Assembly (NCBI RefSeq): GCF_007845675.1
Contig: NZ_VOBR01000021.1
Location: 89,672-153,671, forward strand
Direction of reading: 5' to 3'
Origin: Lentzea tibetensis
GTDB lineage: Bacteria > Actinomycetota > Actinomycetes > Mycobacteriales > Pseudonocardiaceae
DNA: 64,000 nt
The first letter of the stretch is position 1. Every line of letters begins with the position of its first letter. A program made the translations under genes and the position numbers. Below, in pieces: positions 5,699 through 13,994 of this stretch. The notes under the pieces were generated by a model. That model had not been told where the DNA came from. It searched no databases and was given only the letters and a program-made list of their open reading frames with translations.

Positions 5699-5731
5699 AG
5701 CTGTCCTTGGTAGTTGGACAGGAGCTGCGGC

Positions 5732-6529
5732 ATGACCGTGCGAGTCGCTGGCGTGTCGAAGCGGGTGCTCCGGAACTGCACGTTCGAGCTGCCCGGCGGC
5801 GGGGTCACCGCGCTGGTCGGTGCCAACGGTGCGGGCAAGACCACCCTGCTGAACGTGCTGGCGGGCCACCTGACCGCGGACTCGGGTCACGTCGCGGTCG
5901 CCGGGCGGGTGGCGTTCGTGGCGCAGGACAAGCCGATGTACAAGGGTTTCACGCCGCTGGACGTGCTCCGGTTCGGCGGTCACATGAACAAGGTGTGGGA
6001 CGAGTACAAGGCGCACAGCTGGCTGCACCGCTACAAGGTGCCGCTGAAGCGGCGCTGCGGTGAGCTCTCCGCCGGGCAACGCGCGCACGTCGCGTTCGCG
6101 CTGGCGCTCGGCTCGCGGCCGGACGTGCTGCTGCTCGACGAGCCGCTGTCCGAACTGGACCCGCTGGCGCGCCGCAGGGTGGTGCGCGACCTGCTCGCGG
6201 AGGTCGCGGACACAGGGATGACGCTGCTGTACTCGACGCACGTGGTCGCCGAGCTGGGTGGTGTCGCCGACCGGTTGTTGTTGCTGTCGAACGGGAAGCT
6301 GATCGTCGACGGCGACACCGACGAACTGCTCGGCCAGCACGTGGAGATCACCGGTCCGGCGGCCGACCAGCCTCCGGTGCGCGGTGACGTCGTGCTGGCG
6401 AGGCACTACGACCGCCAGTCGACGTTTCTCGTGCGCTGCCAAGGGGAAGCGGTCGCCGAGGAGCCGTGGTCGGCGCGCCCGGTCACGCTCGAGGAGCTGG
6501 TCGTCGCGCACCTGGAGGCCGTGGCGTGA
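5732..6529 (+). CDS. ABC transporter ATP-binding protein (cassette copy 1)
   Basis: 265 residues from ATG 5732 (GGAG 7 bases upstream). Walker A GANGAGKTTL, signature ELSAGQRAH, Walker B VLLLDEPLSELD and switch STHVV are intact, so it should hydrolyse ATP. The C-terminal 60 residues form an accessory domain ending VTLEELVVAHLEAVA, also found in the second ATPase of the operon. It powers the membrane proteins encoded immediately downstream; substrate unknown. YtrA-controlled exporters often respond to envelope-active antibiotics, but nothing here fixes the ligand. The stop overlaps the next GTG start by 4 bases. Confidence 0.92.
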   Translation: MTVRVAGVSKRVLRNCTFELPGGGVTALVGANGAGKTTLLNVLAGHLTADSGHVAVAGRVAFVAQDKPMYKGFTPLDVLRFGGHMNKVWDEYKAHSWLHRYKVPLKRRCGELSAGQRAHVAFALALGSRPDVLLLDEPLSELDPLARRRVVRDLLAEVADTGMTLLYSTHVVAELGGVADRLLLLSNGKLIVDGDTDELLGQHVEITGPAADQPPVRGDVVLARHYDRQSTFLVRCQGEAVAEEPWSARPVTLEELVVAHLEAVA

Positions 6530-7404
6530 GAGGCCTGTTGTGGCTGACGTGGCGTCAGCACCGGTGGGTGCTGTGCTCGACCGCGGTGGTCGTGCTGCTC
6601 GCGTCGTGGCTGCTGATCGAGCTGGACCTCGCGAACACGCCGGGCGATGCCGTTCCGCTGTCCGGCTTCTACGCGCAGCTGGTGCAGACGGCGTTCGGTG
6701 GTCTGGTCGGGATGTTCTGGGGCGCACCGCTGGTCGCCCGCGAGTTCGAGGAGCGCACGTACCTCGTCGCGTGGGGCCAGGACGTCTCGCCGGAGCGGTG
6801 GCTCGCGGGCAAGGTCGCGCTGCTGGGGCTCGTCGCGGTGCTGCTGGCCGTGCCGATCGGCCTCGGTGACGGGTACCGCGGCCACCAGGACGTGTCGTGG
6901 GACGTGTTCGAGGTGAGCCCGCTGGTGCAGGCCGGGTACGTGCTCTTCGGGCTCGCCGCCGGCGTGCTGATGAGCGCGCTCGTGCGGCACACGCTGACCT
7001 CGATGGGGCTGACGCTCGCGCTGTACGTCGCCGTCCGGATGGTGATGTCGCTCGGCGCCCGCGACCACTACCTGCCGACCGAGCGCGTGTTGTCAGAGGT
7101 GGGTGAGGCCAGGCAGCTGCCGGAAGGCGTGCAGATCGTCGAGACCGGGTACCTGGACGGCGACGGTCACGTGATGGGCATGCCGTCCGAGTGCACGGCG
7201 TTCGTGAACCCGCAGAACTGCATCCGGACGCACGGCGGCGCGCACAGCTTCGTCGACTTCCAGCCGATCGACCGCCTGCCCGGCTTCCAGGTCGCCGAGT
7301 TCTTCGCGTTCACGGCGTTCGCCGCCGGGCTGTTCTTCCTCGCTTTTCTGCGGCTGCGCAGGGGATGGCGGCCGTCGCGATCGCATCGGAGGATCGCCGC
7401 GTGA
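6526..7404 (+). CDS. ABC transporter permease (copy 1, with large external loop)
   Basis: 292 residues, about six membrane helices. GTG 6526 overlaps the ATPase stop (GTGA). The N-terminus LLWLTWRQHRWV and the block FWGAPLVAREFEERTYL recur in all three permeases here. A hydrophilic stretch at about residues 180-250 (containing SECTAFVNPQNC with two Cys) should be extracellular. The last helix and basic tail (RLRRGWRPSRSHRR) are cytoplasmic. It pairs with one or both ATPases of the operon as an exporter; substrate unknown. The following permease starts in a 4-base overlap. Confidence 0.88.
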   Translation: MRGLLWLTWRQHRWVLCSTAVVVLLASWLLIELDLANTPGDAVPLSGFYAQLVQTAFGGLVGMFWGAPLVAREFEERTYLVAWGQDVSPERWLAGKVALLGLVAVLLAVPIGLGDGYRGHQDVSWDVFEVSPLVQAGYVLFGLAAGVLMSALVRHTLTSMGLTLALYVAVRMVMSLGARDHYLPTERVLSEVGEARQLPEGVQIVETGYLDGDGHVMGMPSECTAFVNPQNCIRTHGGAHSFVDFQPIDRLPGFQVAEFFAFTAFAAGLFFLAFLRLRRGWRPSRSHRRIAA

Positions 7405-7946
7405 CCGGGCTGCTGTGGGTCACCTGGCGCCAGCACCGCGCGGTGGTGAGCTGGACGACGGTGCTCGTCCTGGTCGTGGTGCTGTTCTCACCGGATCTGA
7501 TCGACTGGGCGTTCCGCAACGCGTTCGGTGCTGTGGTGGCGGTGTTCTGGGGTGCGCCGCTGGTCGCGCGGGAGTTCGAGGAGCGCACGTACCTCGTGGC
7601 GTGGGGCCAGGACGTCTCGCCCGCGCGGTGGCTGGCCGTGAAGTGCGGCCTGCTGGGATCCGCGGCCGTGGTGCTGGCCGCGTTGCTCGACGTGCGGCAG
7701 ATCGGCTTCACGCTGTTCGGGTTCGCGCTCGGTGTCGTAGCGGGCTTCGTGACGCGGCGGACGGTGCCCGCGATCGCGTTCACGCTGGTCGGGTACGTGC
7801 TGGTGCGCTGGCTGTTCGCCGGTGAGACCAGCGTGTGGCTGTTCGAGTCGAGCGTCCTTTGTGGAGTGTTCGGCGCCGTGTTGATCCCGGTCGCGTTCGT
7901 GCTGCTCTCGTGGCGGACGAACGCCTTTCGGATGGGGGTGGCGTGA
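7401..7946 (+). CDS. ABC transporter permease (copy 2, short form)
   Basis: 181 residues, about five membrane helices. GTG 7401 overlaps the previous stop. It begins TGLLWVTWRQHRAVV and carries the same FWGAPLVAREFEERTYL block, but lacks the large external loop of copies 1 and 3, so it is an internally shortened duplicate. Presumably it heterodimerises with another permease of the cassette. The stop TGA is followed directly by the ATG of the second ATPase. Confidence 0.85.
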   Translation: MTGLLWVTWRQHRAVVSWTTVLVLVVVLFSPDLIDWAFRNAFGAVVAVFWGAPLVAREFEERTYLVAWGQDVSPARWLAVKCGLLGSAAVVLAALLDVRQIGFTLFGFALGVVAGFVTRRTVPAIAFTLVGYVLVRWLFAGETSVWLFESSVLCGVFGAVLIPVAFVLLSWRTNAFRMGVA

Positions 7947-8744
7947 ATGGGGATTCACGTCGAAGGTGTGTCGAAATGGGTGTTGCGCGACTGCTCGTTC
8001 GAGTTGCCGTCCGGGAGCGTGACCGCGCTGGTCGGTGCGAACGGCGCGGGCAAGACGACGCTGCTGTCGTTGCTGGCCGGTCTGCTCTCCGCTGACTCCG
8101 GCCAGGTGCGCGCCGACGGGCGCGTGGCGTTCGTCGCGCAGGACAAGCCGCTGTACAAGCACTTCACCGCGACGGACGCGCTGAGCTTCGGCAAGCACAC
8201 CAACAAGGTGTGGGACCAGGAGCGGGCGGTCGGGTGGCTCTCGCGGTTCGGGGTTCCGTTGAAGCGCGCGTCCGGCAGGTTGTCCGGAGGCCAACGAGCG
8301 CACATCTCGTTCGCCGTGGCTCTGGGTTCCCGGCCGGATGTGCTGCTGCTCGACGAGCCGCTGTCCGAGCTGGATCCGCTGGTGCGCAAGGAGGTCACCG
8401 CCGCTCTGCTCGGTTTCGTGGCCGACGAGGGCACGACTCTGGTGCTGTCGACGCACGTGGTGTCGGAGCTGTCCGGTGTCGCCGACCGGTTGTTGTTGCT
8501 GGCGCAGGGGGAGCTGCTCGTCTCGGGTGAGGTGGACGACCTGCTCGGGTCGCACGTCTCGTACGTGGGGCCGGTGTCCACCGCGGCGCCTGGGCCCGGT
8601 GACGTCGTGCTCGCGCGGCACACGGCCGCGCAGTCGCAGTTCCTGGTGCGCACGCCGTCACCTGTTTCCGTTGCGGAGCCGTGGGTTTCGCGTCCCGTGT
8701 CGCTGGAAGACCTCGTACTGGCTCACCTGGAGGTGGCCGAATGA
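7947..8744 (+). CDS. ABC transporter ATP-binding protein (cassette copy 2)
   Basis: 265 residues, about 60-65% identical by eye to the first ATPase over its whole length, including the C-terminal accessory segment ending VSLEDLVLAHLEVAE. Walker A GANGAGKTTL, a canonical signature RLSGGQRAH (copy 1 has LSAGQ), Walker B VLLLDEPLSELD and STHVV are intact. The ATG immediately follows the previous stop, implying coupled translation. The duplicated ATPase-permease pair suggests the cassette arose by tandem duplication. Confidence 0.92.
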   Translation: MGIHVEGVSKWVLRDCSFELPSGSVTALVGANGAGKTTLLSLLAGLLSADSGQVRADGRVAFVAQDKPLYKHFTATDALSFGKHTNKVWDQERAVGWLSRFGVPLKRASGRLSGGQRAHISFAVALGSRPDVLLLDEPLSELDPLVRKEVTAALLGFVADEGTTLVLSTHVVSELSGVADRLLLLAQGELLVSGEVDDLLGSHVSYVGPVSTAAPGPGDVVLARHTAAQSQFLVRTPSPVSVAEPWVSRPVSLEDLVLAHLEVAE

Positions 8745-9664
8745 TCTGGGTGACCTACCGCCAGCACCGCTGGCTCGTGGCGGGCACGGCGCTGGCCGTC
8801 GCGCTGATGGCGCTCGTCCGCGTGCTGCCGAGGATGCCGGACTACATCTCCTACGGGGCCTTCGGTGCGATCGCCGCGGTGTTCTGGGGCGCGCCGCTGC
8901 TCGCGCGGGAGTACGAGGAGCGCACGCACGTCTTCGCGTGGTCGCAGGACGTCAGCCAGGGGCGGTGGCTGGCGGGCAAGGTGCTCGCGCTGGGGGCCGC
9001 GCTGACGTTGTTCGCGGTGGTGCTGTGGCTGGCCGGCCTGGGGACCACGACCTCGAGGTACCCGTGGGACAGCTTCGAGCTGGGGCTGTTCCCGTTGCTC
9101 GGCTACGCCTGGTTCGGTTTCGCGCTCGGGCTCGCGGCAAGTGCGCTGACCAGGCGGACTCTGGTCGCGATGGGGTTGTCGCTCTTCGTGTTCACGGTGA
9201 CCAGGGTGGTGCTCGCGCGCTGGGGGCGCGAGCACTACCTTCCTCCGGTCCACACCTGGCGCCCCGACCCGCCGCCTGGCGTCGACTACGTGCCGCAGCT
9301 GCCGCGCGACGGCCTCTGGATCGACAGCGGCTACGCCGACCGCAACGGTGACCCGATGCCGCCACCGCTGCAGTGCAACGGCGACGACACGTGCCTCAAG
9401 GCGAACGGTCAGATCGGGCACTTCGTCGACTACCAGCCAGGTTCCCGCTTGGTCACGTTCCAGCTGATCGAGTTCGCGATCTTCGTGGTGCTGGCCGCCC
9501 TGCTGCTGTTCGTGGCGTTCAGAGCGCTCCGGCGTGGTACGCGCTCCAGGCCGACGGGAAGCGCGGCCGGAACCCCAGTTCCCGCTGGATCCGGTTCGTC
9601 GACACGATCCCGTGCCACGGATCCGGATGCTGCGTCGGTTCGGCCGGAAGAGGAACCCCGTTGA
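8741..9664 (+). CDS. ABC transporter permease (copy 3)
   Basis: 307 residues. ATG 8741 overlaps the ATPase stop (ATGA). About six membrane helices, with a start (WVTYRQHRWLVAG) and FWGAPLLAREYEERTH block shared with the other permeases, and an external loop holding two Cys (CNGDDTC). After the last helix (about residue 262) the reading frame runs on for about 45 Arg/Ser/Gly/Pro-rich residues that overlap the 3' end of the convergent SDR gene by 146 bases. That tail is probably not a folded domain; it may reflect loss of an earlier stop. Confidence 0.85.
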   Translation: MIWVTYRQHRWLVAGTALAVALMALVRVLPRMPDYISYGAFGAIAAVFWGAPLLAREYEERTHVFAWSQDVSQGRWLAGKVLALGAALTLFAVVLWLAGLGTTTSRYPWDSFELGLFPLLGYAWFGFALGLAASALTRRTLVAMGLSLFVFTVTRVVLARWGREHYLPPVHTWRPDPPPGVDYVPQLPRDGLWIDSGYADRNGDPMPPPLQCNGDDTCLKANGQIGHFVDYQPGSRLVTFQLIEFAIFVVLAALLLFVAFRALRRGTRSRPTGSAAGTPVPAGSGSSTRSRATDPDAASVRPEEEPR

Positions 9665-10365: not shown

Positions 10366-11187
10366 GTGGTCGTGGACCGACAGGAGCTGGCCCGCTTCCT
10401 GCGCGCTCGCCGGGAGCGGATGACGCCGTTGGCCGATGGCCGCCGACGGACACCTGGGCTGCGTCGCGAGGAGGTCGCCTCGCTGGCCGGGATGTCGACC
10501 GACTACTACACGCGTCTCGAACAGGCCCGCGGTCCGCACCCGTCGGCCTCCGTGGTGGCCGGGCTCGCACGTGCTCTGGAGCTGTCCACCGACGAGCGCG
10601 ACTACCTGTTCCGGCTGGTCGACGTGCCGGTGCCCGCCGCTGGTCCCGGTTCGCTCCGGCCGGGCCTGCGGCTCCTGCTCTCCCGCTTGCAGTCCGACTG
10701 CGCCACGGTGATCACCGACACGGGTGACGTGCTGGCGTGGACGCCGCTGGCCTCGCTGGTGTTTCCCGAGGTCGAGGACGGGTTGAACCTGTTCCGGCTG
10801 TTCTTCCTGTCCGGGCTGGAGAGCCGCATCCCGGCGCCGGATCGTCTCGACGTCGCTCGCTCGCACGTCGCCGACCTGCGCGCGACGCTGGCCAGGCGGC
10901 CCTCGGTCCGGCCGCTGGTCGACTCGCTGCTGGAGAGTCCTCTGTTCGCGCGGCTGTGGGCGGAGCAGGAGGTGGCCGTGCGGCGGTCGGCGCGCAAGCG
11001 GATCGTGCACCCGGTCGTGGGGCTGCTGGAGCTCGACTGCGAGGTGCTCCTGTCGCCCGAGCAGGACCAGCGGCTGGTGCTGCACACGGCACCGCCCGGC
11101 TCGGTCACCGCCGCTCGGCTCGACTTGTTGCGTGAACGGGCCGTTGACGATCCCGCGCAGCTGTGGGTCCTGTCGCCGGGTGGATGA
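10366..11187 (+). CDS. XRE family regulator with MmyB-like ligand domain
   Basis: 273 residues. Residues about 8-68 form a Cro/cI-type HTH (ELARFLRARRERM, GLRREEVASLAGMSTDYYTRLEQ). The rest matches the MmyB-like C-terminal domain seen in many actinobacterial regulators (LLSRLQSDCATVITDTGDVLAW, RSARKRIVHPVVGLLELDCEVL). These proteins often sit divergently to a single oxidoreductase gene and sense a small, possibly fatty, ligand; the divergent SDR gene fits. The start is GTG 10366 or 10372. The stop lies just before the hairpin and inverted repeat bounding the HNH element. Confidence 0.9.
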   Translation: MVVDRQELARFLRARRERMTPLADGRRRTPGLRREEVASLAGMSTDYYTRLEQARGPHPSASVVAGLARALELSTDERDYLFRLVDVPVPAAGPGSLRPGLRLLLSRLQSDCATVITDTGDVLAWTPLASLVFPEVEDGLNLFRLFFLSGLESRIPAPDRLDVARSHVADLRATLARRPSVRPLVDSLLESPLFARLWAEQEVAVRRSARKRIVHPVVGLLELDCEVLLSPEQDQRLVLHTAPPGSVTAARLDLLRERAVDDPAQLWVLSPGG

Positions 11188-11188
11188 G

Positions 11189-11274
11189 TGCCGGGCTTCG
11201 CCCGGACCACGGGTGATGCCTCCTTCGTCGGCGTCACCCGTACCGGATTCTTGGGTGGCTTGGCACCGTGGTCC
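11189..11274 (+). repeat. Left 86-bp inverted repeat of the DUF222-HNH element
   Basis: The reverse complement of this segment matches 12649-12734 with about 5 mismatches in 86 bases (my manual count). Its outer end is a hairpin, CCGGGC-TTC-GCCCGG, at 11191-11205. Weaker similarity to the right side continues inward (an ACGGACTCAACGC-type block). It begins two bases after the XRE stop, where the hairpin could also end transcription. Confidence 0.9.
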
Positions 11275-11434
11275 GGTCCGGTGGTCGGTTTCGTGGTTTG
11301 GTCGCGTTGAGTCCGTAGTCGCCGGGTGGTGGCTCGTCTTTTCGTTCTTTTCCTTCCGCCTCAACGATTATGGATGAGTACGTGACTCTAACGAGTGACA
11401 GCGGTTCGAACAATTGTGCGGTAATGTGTTCGTT

Positions 11435-12601
11435 GTGAACATCGAGGGGGCTCTCGACACAATCCAGCACTGCCAGAAACAGATCGACTACTGGCAGGCC
11501 CAGCAGGTTCGCGCATTGGGTGAATACGCCGAACTCACGTGGCAGGACGAGTTCGCGTCCTCCGAGATCGCCGCGATGATGCACTGGACCCGGAACTGGA
11601 CCGAGGACCGGATGATGGTCTCCCGGGATCTCGTGTCGCGGCTGCCGTTGACGGTCGACGCCCTGGAGAAGGGCGAGATCGACCTCTACAAAGCACAGAT
11701 CATCCACACCCAGACCCTGCCACTCAGTGCTGAGCAGGCGGCCGAGGTCGAACAACGCGTACTCACCAAGGCGCCCGAGCAGACCAGCGTGCAGATGCGG
11801 CGCCGAGGGCGGCGGATCGTGATGAGCGTCGACCCCGACGGAACCCGCGAACGCGCCGAAGCCAAGAAAGCCGCCCGCGCCGCCGGGATGGAGTCCCTCG
11901 AGGACGACATGGCCAAACTGTGGGTCACCATGCCCGCCGACAAAGCCATGGTCAGCTGGCTGCGCGTCGACAAGCTCGCCCGCGCCGCGAAGTTCCCCGG
12001 TGACACCCGCACCCTCAACCAGCGCCGCGCCGACGTCGTCGCCGACCTGCTGCTCGCGACCCCGGACAACGCCAGCCCGGTCAAGGTCGAGCTGCTGGTC
12101 ACCGTCTCGGCCACTACGCTGATGGGTCTCGACGAGCATCCCGGCGAGATGGACGGCTACGGGCCGATCAGCGCCGACCTGGCCCGCGAACTCGCCGGGG
12201 ACGCGACCTGGCGCCGTCTGCTCACCGACCCGGCCTCCGGCGCCCTGCTCGATGTCGGCACCAGCACCTACCGGCCCCCGGCGCATCTGCGCCGGTTCAT
12301 GTGGGCGCGGGACAAGACCTGCACCCAGTACGGCTGCACCGCGAAAGCCACCCGCTGCGACCTCGACCACACGGTCCCGTTCCCCGAAGGCCCGACCGCC
12401 GACCACAACCTCGGCCCCCGGTGCGGACACGACCACCGCCTCAAGCACGAATCAGCCTGGCAAATCACCCAACCCTCCCCAGGCACATTCCGGTGCGTCA
12501 GCCCCACCGGCCGCGTCTACATCCGCGAACCCGAACCAGTCCTCCCCGGCTTCAACTATGAACCAAGAGAAAGAATGAAAAGGCGAGCCACCGCCCGGTA
12601 A
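11435..12601 (+). CDS. DUF222-HNH endonuclease (13E12 repeat family)
   Basis: 388 residues from GTG 11435; ATG 11414 would add seven. The N-terminal two thirds are the helical DUF222 domain (CQKQIDYWQAQQVRAL, EIDLYKAQIIHTQTL, a basic RRRGRRIVMSVDPDG). The C-terminus is an HNH nuclease module: RDKTC and CTAKATRCDLDH supply zinc Cys and the first His, followed by ADHNLGPRCGHDHRLKH. Both zinc and catalytic residues look intact, so nicking or cleavage of DNA is expected. The coding 3' end runs up to the right repeat. Upstream DNA (11340-11420) is AT-richer than the neighbourhood and probably holds the promoter. Confidence 0.9.
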   Translation: MNIEGALDTIQHCQKQIDYWQAQQVRALGEYAELTWQDEFASSEIAAMMHWTRNWTEDRMMVSRDLVSRLPLTVDALEKGEIDLYKAQIIHTQTLPLSAEQAAEVEQRVLTKAPEQTSVQMRRRGRRIVMSVDPDGTRERAEAKKAARAAGMESLEDDMAKLWVTMPADKAMVSWLRVDKLARAAKFPGDTRTLNQRRADVVADLLLATPDNASPVKVELLVTVSATTLMGLDEHPGEMDGYGPISADLARELAGDATWRRLLTDPASGALLDVGTSTYRPPAHLRRFMWARDKTCTQYGCTAKATRCDLDHTVPFPEGPTADHNLGPRCGHDHRLKHESAWQITQPSPGTFRCVSPTGRVYIREPEPVLPGFNYEPRERMKRRATAR

Positions 12602-12648
12602 CCACGGACTCAACGCAACGAGAATCTCGCAAGGCAAGCATCGGATCG

Positions 12649-12734
12649 GGACCACGGTGCCAAGCCACCCAAGAACTCGGTACGCGTGACGCCGACGGAG
12701 GAGGCATCACGCGTGGTCCGGGCGAAGCCCGGCA
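12649..12734 (-). repeat. Right 86-bp inverted repeat of the DUF222-HNH element
   Basis: Inverted partner of 11189-11274. The terminal hairpin CCGGGC-GAA-GCCCGG lies at 12718-12732, close to the outer end. It lies 48 bases after the HNH stop and may double as its terminator. The remaining 72 bases before purK hold no recognisable gene. Confidence 0.9.
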
Positions 12735-12806
12735 ACCCACGCTCCCGGCCGCTTACCTGCGGTCGCGCGATGGACCAGCCATTTAGCCCAGTAGAGTGCG
12801 TAACCC

Positions 12807-13990
12807 GTGGACTCCCGAACCCGTCTCCCCGTCGTCGGCATGATCGGTGGCGGCCAGCTCGCGCGCATGACGCACCAGGCCGCGATCCCGCTCGGCCAGT
12901 CCCTGCGCGTGCTCGCCGCGTCCGAATCGGACCCCGCCGCCCTGGTCGCCCGTGACGTCGTGCTGGGCACGCACACGGACCTCGACGCGTTGCGCGCGTT
13001 CGCGAAGGGCTGCGAGGTCGTCACGTTCGACCACGAGCACGTGCCCGGCGAGCACCTGCGGGCGCTGCTCGCCGAAGGCGTGAAGGTGTTCCCCGGTCCG
13101 GAAGCGCTGCTGTACGCGCAGGACAAGTGGGAGATGCGCGAGAAGCTGTCGTCGCTCGGCCTGCCGGTCCCGCCGTACGCGGCGGTCTCGAACGTCCAGG
13201 ACGTGCTGCGCTTCGGCGCCGCCGAGGGCTGGCCGTGCGTGCTGAAGGCGGTGCGCGGCGGGTACGACGGCAAGGGCGTGTGGATGCTGAACACGCCGTC
13301 GAGCGCCGAACGCGTGGTGCCGGAACTGCTGGCCGCCGGAACGCCGCTCATGGTCGAGCAGTGCGTGCCGATGCGCCGCGAGCTGGCCGCGCTGGTCGCG
13401 CGCTCGCCGTTCGGGCAGGGCGCGGCGTGGCCGGTCGTCGAGACCGTGCAGCGAGACGGCATCTGCGTCGAGGTGCTCGCCCCCGCGCCCGGAGTGGACG
13501 GTGAGGCCGCGCAAGCGCTTGCGCTCCAGGTCGCGGACGCGCTCGGCGTCGTCGGTGTGTTGGCGGTCGAACTGTTCGAGACCGCGTCCGGTGTGGTCGT
13601 GAACGAGCTCGCGATGCGTCCGCACAACTCGGGCCACTGGACGATCGAGGGCGCGCGGACGTCCCAGTTCGAACAGCACCTGCGCGCGGTGCTCGACTAC
13701 CCGCTCGGCGCGACCGACCTCATGGCACCCGCGGTCGTCATGGCGAACGTGCTGGGCGCGATGACGCCGGTCGCGATGGGCCCGGACGAGCGCCTGCACC
13801 ACCTGTTCGCGCGGTTCCCGGACGCCCACGTGCACCTGTACGGCAAGGAGGAGCGGCCGGGTCGCAAGATCGGGCACGTGACCTTCCTCGGCGCCGAGAT
13901 GGAAGCCGTTCGCTCAAGGGCCAAGCTGTCCGCGCATTGGCTTTCCACGGGCGAATGGCTCGACGGATACGACATTCACGGAGGCACGGA

Positions 13991-13994
<4 letters not shown>
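12807..13994 (+). CDS. purK: N5-carboxyaminoimidazole ribonucleotide synthase
   Basis: 395 residues, GTG start. An ATP-grasp enzyme that joins AIR, ATP and bicarbonate to give N5-CAIR in purine synthesis. Visible are the N-terminal [19 protein letters not shown] (PurK-type TxExE analogue), the ATP-grasp core [16 protein letters not shown], and [18 protein letters not shown] with metal-binding and substrate residues. Length is normal for actinobacterial PurK. It overlaps purE by 4 bases, the usual order. The start lies 72 bases after the HNH element, so the element sits in what would be the purK upstream region. Confidence 0.96.

Follow-up and report, generated by a model that had tools for sequence, protein, structure and literature searches.

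A DUF222-HNH gene between hairpin-tipped arms in Lentzea tibetensis: a probable one-gene mobile element with folded ends

How does a single nuclease gene, enclosed by two inverted repeats that are tipped by the same hairpin, come to lie between a regulator gene and purK in Lentzea tibetensis, and is it a mobile element? The question arises from a stretch of 64,000 nucleotides (contig NZ_VOBR01000021.1, positions 89,672 to 153,671; hereafter, the window), in which a preliminary description had singled out one intact DUF222-HNH gene between 86-bp inverted repeats (about five mismatches by hand count), and had suggested a nuclease-driven element with recognised hairpin ends. The architecture is as described: the unit, of about 1.55 kb, lies between an XRE/MmyB-like gene and purK in the order arm, gene, arm (Table 1), the 86-nt repeats have exactly five mismatches (94% complementary), and CCGGGCTTCGCCCGG stands at both tips.

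Table 1. Features of the unit and its neighbours (positions in the window)
Feature	Position	Strand	Description	Evidence
Left neighbour, XRE/MmyB-like regulator	10366..11187	+		Pfam MLTR_LBD and HTH_31
Left arm	11189..11355	+	86-nt core 11189-11274, then inner inverted repeat 11301-11355	Inverted-repeat pairs; matches arms elsewhere in the genome
Left tip hairpin CCGGGCTTCGCCCGG	11191..11205	+		Tip motif and folding
Left second hairpin	11209..11241	+	12 pairs, 9-nt loop	Pairing kept through two-sided changes across arms
DUF222-HNH gene	11435..12601	+	388 aa, intact	PF02720 E 3e-25; alignment with 27 relatives; HNH-type motif by eye
Right arm, inverted	12565..12734	-	86-nt core 12649-12734; inner part overlaps gene end	
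Right second hairpin	12682..12714	-		Pairing kept across arms
Right tip hairpin	12718..12732	-		Tip motif and folding
Right neighbour, purK	12807..13994	+		Pfam ATP-grasp and PurK_C

The left arm begins after a gap of 1 nt from the XRE stop codon. A second inverted pair (11301-11355 with 12565-12619; 55 nt, 84%) extends each arm to about 170 nt, and an arm reads, from the tip inward, tip hairpin, second hairpin with its 9-nt loop, then ACCGG or ACCGA; two of the five mismatches are both halves of one second-hairpin pair, which is G-C in one arm and C-G in the other. The longest exact inverted repeat in 10401-13600 measures 27 nt (the maximum in 200 mononucleotide shuffles is 22), the window has two occurrences of the tip motif (up to one mismatch allowed) where 0.02 would be expected, and the arm regions, folded as DNA, lie about 2 SD below dinucleotide shuffles (z -1.95 and -2.01). 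No Rfam family reached its cut-off in this region (best 18.4 bits against 70). Elsewhere in the window (5714-9664), two alike blocks in a row, of an ABC-type ATPase ORF with permease-like ORFs, look in the ORF list like a tandem duplication.

Had the unit been found always at this one locus, the idea of a mobile element would have suffered; it is dispersed. The L. tibetensis genome (9.36 Mb, 105 contigs) contains five such units, the window's included, at five loci with unrelated flanks; they are 84-100% identical and each has an open gene; in the C20 copy the right arm is damaged. A further three DUF222 copies match at 66% identity along part of their length, one of them (C2) with its own pair of hairpin-tipped arms, and Lentzea sp. 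NBRC 105346 has five further copies with other arm sequences. Repeats without the gene, which the preliminary description had counted against an element, do occur. Arm-only units are present in the window's genome at C1, C23 and C28 (two) and beside the C20 copy; the arm is followed by a linker of about 71-85 nt, whole in three of these five units and partial at C1, after which comes the next arm (C20 and C28) or the first letters of one (C23). In a L. nigeriaca copy (L241), arms at 1254-1307 and 1628-1681 enclose about 29 remaining codons of the gene. We read the arm-only units and this internally deleted copy as relics or derivatives. The arms might also have been common transcription terminators, and this we reject: the exact tip motif TGCCGGGCTKCGCCCGG occurs 12 times in the 9.36-Mb genome, each time at an arm, and the reversed control pattern not once.

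Resident paralogues could in principle have been multiplied by segmental duplication and gene conversion, without transposition. Gene conversion among the REP13E12 copies of Mycobacterium tuberculosis is reported (PMC13061034), the two arms of copy C13 are nearly identical (0.97), and the C30 and C20 copies (L002 and L009) sit at the same point beside paralogous XRE genes. Sharp boundaries recur, however, in many copies with unrelated flanks, and we consider this explanation very improbable. Homogenisation of the two arms of one copy is unsupported as well, C13 excepted, by the mean identities of own left-right pairs and of cross pairs (0.850 vs 0.848 in the window's genome, 0.853 vs 0.838 in NBRC 105346, 0.729 vs 0.715 in a mixed set of five). 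In all three sets tested the mean left-left and right-right identities equal or exceed that of own pairs; an arm is on average no closer to its own partner than to arms of its side in other copies, so the arms travel with the gene. In our view, the comparison of these copies establishes dispersal as a unit.

What do the sites look like with and without it? Empty XRE-purK sites, which the preliminary description proposed to look for, are found in 12 of the 24 other Lentzea genomes, where the two genes adjoin without insert (the two alignments overlap or leave no more than 105 nt between their ends; two of these 12 XRE matches are partial); the other 12 have no XRE match in the purK locus. A copy in NBRC 105346 with a frameshifted gene (L049) is syntenic on both flanks with the window's genome, where (L156) about 267 nt with a different palindrome take the place of 1757 nt; this palindrome, which measures about 70 nt and lies between the same pair of genes, is perhaps another small repeat or a terminator. 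A third paralogue of the XRE genes beside C30 and C20 is without a unit (C63, L158), and reads GAGTGAGGGTTG-TTCTCG where the filled C30 reads GAGTGAGGGTTG-CCGGG; the unit's outermost letters match this unfilled site, whether by microhomology or by chance. A comparison of L. kentuckyensis with L. alba gave no exact allelic empty site, the upstream flank alone aligning. Several tips lie a few bases past the stop codon of the neighbouring gene (flanks read, uncounted).

A target duplication, the further check suggested at the outset, does not appear beyond mispaired controls: the mean junction repeat is 3.0 nt against 3.03 nt for 16 Lentzea units (a test in which the left tip of C13 was misplaced), and 3.63 against 3.65 nt for 35 units of five genomes, the single best repeats being 6 nt (L014) and 7 nt (L287). 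Pfam finds no transposase domain in the one gene of the unit, and these two results together agree with the original view that this is not a DDE transposon.

The plan of the arm is constant across Lentzea while its sequence varies. A set of 38 arms contains 11 distinct second hairpins, in which 127 of 132 cells are paired; slid controls give 23-56%. For 56 model-aligned arms (45 distinct) the figure is 98.0% against 21-46%, in an alignment that leans towards structure because it was fitted to the model. In these related sequences, cells with a two-sided change number 82, against 20.3 in shuffles, and the covariation score is 0.349 against 0.106 (for both, none of 500 shuffles was as high); 8 of 17 pairs show a two-sided change, a number within the ordinary range (60 of 500 shuffles). 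The covariance model, trained on 20 arms that all came from DUF222 loci, has 56 matches in 17 of 25 Lentzea genomes and none, with stricter filters, in 273 other Pseudonocardiaceae genomes. Of 55 matches inspected, 48 are at loci with DUF222 sequence; of the seven others, the window's genome has six and G002 one, close to a contig end. Thirty-five of the 56 lie at loci that had already been analysed, training arms included. Of the 21 new places, 17 are at DUF222 sequence, three are without, and the uninspected one is at a contig start. Fifteen of the 17 accompany subfamily B and C genes, which had no part in the training (the other two arms surround a remnant); they do not count as 15 independent events, since many B genes share a neighbouring ORF and seem orthologous. 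On these loci, the folded arm in Lentzea goes with DUF222 genes. Viral contigs contained no exact 23-nt core of the L. flava-type arm (which is not the window's arm), and the seven phage and nine plasmid records were all below 60% identity.

The units are laid out in three ways. Inverted arms at both ends are seen in the window's genome, NBRC 105346, L. flava, L. nigeriaca and L. atacamensis. In four L. alba and five L. kentuckyensis copies (five distinct loci, four of them shared by the two species) there is a left arm only and the unit ends at the stop codon. In three L. aerocolonigenes copies there is a right arm only, and the unit starts about 65-80 bp before the gene. Orthologous copies can differ in layout, so that arms have been lost or gained, and inverted repeats are not essential, because one-armed units of either side are dispersed too. 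The idea of an element bounded by inverted repeats thus holds for the window copy, and fails as a requirement in L. alba, L. kentuckyensis and L. aerocolonigenes. Nor are flanking inverted repeats a general mark of DUF222 genes: they were found at 13 of 35 testable loci (36 taken), two of them short (33 and 35 nt), the control loci giving 0 of 24 for purK and 2 of 24 for XRE. The left arm of one L. alba copy (L176, 1102-2317) is interrupted by about 1.2 kb with an ORF that we take to be an IS110-type transposase.

One might ask whether the arm is a transposon end at all. It could serve DUF222 genes as a structured leader or a regulatory site, the family spreading by other means. In subfamilies A, B and C the Lentzea arm lies about 200-280 bp upstream of the gene, also at stable-looking loci, and its presence upstream of subfamily-B genes, many at apparently one conserved locus, speaks against the element reading; there a regulatory role would fit as well. 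We see such a locus in several Lentzea species (L218, L220, L222, L224, L242, L243 and L244), where a subfamily-B gene with one upstream arm is near an ORF starting LKLDRALGLMREV, presumably adenine phosphoribosyltransferase-like; the B gene is seemingly a stable resident copy. A leader would not readily account, however, for a tip that is the boundary of the repeated unit, for an arm that is found downstream as well, in inverted orientation (and in L. aerocolonigenes at no other place), or for dispersed arm-only units, and we regard this explanation as unlikely.

What of the protein? DUF222 (PF02720, E 3e-25) is its sole Pfam match, and the HNH-type motif at the C-terminus (DHTVP, residues 311-315) was recognised by eye. 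No Pfam HNH model scored the window protein or three subfamily-A relatives tested; subfamilies C and D score above the cut-off and B below. The start at 11435 (GTG) was set by comparison with other copies (the ORF list starts at TTG 11414). No model of NCBIfam, PHROGs or PADLOC matches, Pfam gives neither a DDE nor an HUH (Y1) transposase nor a RuvC domain, and a PDB sequence search returned one match, an HNH endonuclease, over the HNH region (E 0.39). Comparison of copies gives a dN/dS of 0.06-0.25 for the window's genome, 0.03-0.06 for NBRC 105346 and 0.07-0.12 for L. kentuckyensis; judged by these ratios, the DUF222 genes are under purifying selection. As dS within genomes is mostly 0.2-0.5, with dN/dS of 0.03-0.25, the copies are old yet functional. 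At another locus (L072, 1605-3153), inverted arms enclose a DUF222-HNH gene of very different sequence (identity of about 30% across the HNH region), and the inner part of these arms resembles the main-family arms of the same genome.

A nuclease beside a covarying structure recalls IscB, which has an upstream RNA, and an analogous reading would make the protein an RNA-guided or RNA-dependent nuclease, the arm the scaffold of its RNA and the spread homing-like. The likeness to IscB/OMEGA systems lies in the HNH-type motif (by eye) and in the covarying structure beside the gene at the element edge; moreover, 43 of the 45 distinct arms retain one particular U-G pair, which favours the strand read from the tip inward. 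This strand argument is thin, because without that pair the G-U cells number 11 and the A-C cells 8. Unlike those systems, the protein has no RuvC domain by Pfam; also against this reading, the Lentzea arm is known from DNA sequence, and the tip hairpin stands at the outer edge in two inverted copies. Such a reading appears to us decidedly unlikely.

It could also be argued that another host enzyme moves the arms in trans, the DUF222-HNH gene being a passenger or an accessory. The existence of arm-only units in the window's genome would suit this, and catalysis by the DUF222-HNH protein is a role that we infer. On the other hand, differing arm sequences in differing Lentzea lineages stay with DUF222 genes, and these genes are under purifying selection; we doubt that the arms are moved in this way.

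We think that the unit is probably a self-contained one-gene mobile element, whose DUF222-HNH protein would act on the folded end. Its position at unrelated intergenic sites, its sharp ends, its deletion derivatives and its conserved folded end are established as far as genome comparison reaches; that the protein drives dispersal through this end is suggested by its being the only gene, by the selection upon it and by the association of arm and gene. In this mechanism, the DUF222 domain would bind the folded arm, most likely as single-stranded DNA or as a hairpin extruded during replication, the HNH domain would nick at or near the tip, and the element would be copied into a new site via strand invasion or end joining, without target duplication. 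One folded end seems enough, because left-only and right-only units have dispersed as well; in one-armed units the edge of the gene would define the other end. The copy in the window has both arms.

A first scan of genome contigs, with a single protein as query, gave no match. Of 60 Pseudonocardiaceae genomes searched, three of them Lentzea, 38 have DUF222; at least 31 copies are present in three of the 60, 31 being also the number of candidates scored. Repeated boundaries with unrelated flanks were found in four genomes of other genera (10, 10, 10 and 3 copies) and in seven copies of a further L. aerocolonigenes subfamily (that separate subfamily, L308-L314, of about 405 aa, has many copies, some near contig ends, in a genome with 22 DUF222 matches). 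When folded, the left ends of four G031 and four G030 units form long hairpins (no shuffle control). The right ends are close to the end of the gene. By median alignment ends, all eight G031 copies have a stop codon that ends outside the unit, at a distance of 9-51 nt, so that the flank supplies it; in eight of nine G030 copies this distance is 5-13 nt (127 in one); the unit runs 46-52 nt past the stop in nine of ten G076 copies (147 in one, its frame closing early) and 2-6 nt past it in all three of G057. We would tentatively go further, to a proposal that we hold as possible rather than probable: DUF222-HNH proteins may be the mobilising enzymes of a new transposon class, in which an HNH nuclease acts on a folded DNA (or RNA) end, one end is enough and no target duplication is made, across Pseudonocardiaceae (31 or more copies in some of its genomes), with the mycobacterial REP13E12 perhaps among them.

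By protein family, REP13E12 is the closest known system; PMC10589994 labels it REP13E12/HNH endonuclease/DUF222. Like the units described here, REP13E12/13E12 of M. tuberculosis is repeated in one genome and of the DUF222 family (PF02720, E 3e-25, five copies here), and the comparison extends to that shared family only, the hairpin arms, arm-only derivatives and layouts being described here for Lentzea. A further feature of REP13E12 is its use as a site of prophage attachment. The closest working likeness is RAYT-REP, in which, according to PMC2817692, one gene lies between two inverted palindromes and coevolves with them, and palindromes also occur dispersed. Here too one gene lies between inverted folded ends and arm-only copies are dispersed, without target duplication; membership fails on the enzyme, which is DUF222-HNH with no tyrosine (HUH) transposase by Pfam, and the arms are of about 170 nt instead of short REPs, the gene is multi-copy and arm-only copies are few. 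DDE insertion sequences and MITEs share the inverted repeats round one gene seen in some genomes (window copy included), and the internally deleted L. nigeriaca copy, which keeps both arms, is MITE-like; unlike DDE insertion sequences, the unit has no DDE domain by Pfam, no target duplication and dispensable inverted repeats. Folded ends and the absence of target duplication are also features of IS200/IS605, as they are here. There TnpA recognises hairpins (PMC6006769), whereas here Pfam found no HUH domain and the ends are inverted or single.

The repeat family itself was already known, as PMC10589994 and the preprint PMC13061034 make clear. No description of a DUF222 mobile element, nor of the folded ends, layouts and derivatives, was met in the literature searched, most subscription papers lying outside the search; one match, PMC10123090, concerns DUF2220, not DUF222. 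The REP13E12 repeats are still described, in PMC13061034, as without defined function. DUF222 is a common multi-copy family, and the ends, the derivatives and the filled and empty loci give concrete substrates for this old question: which of the ends is cut, what cuts it, and how the joining is done. Should the HNH protein prove to be the mobiliser, its transposition chemistry would belong to none of the DDE, HUH, serine and tyrosine classes.
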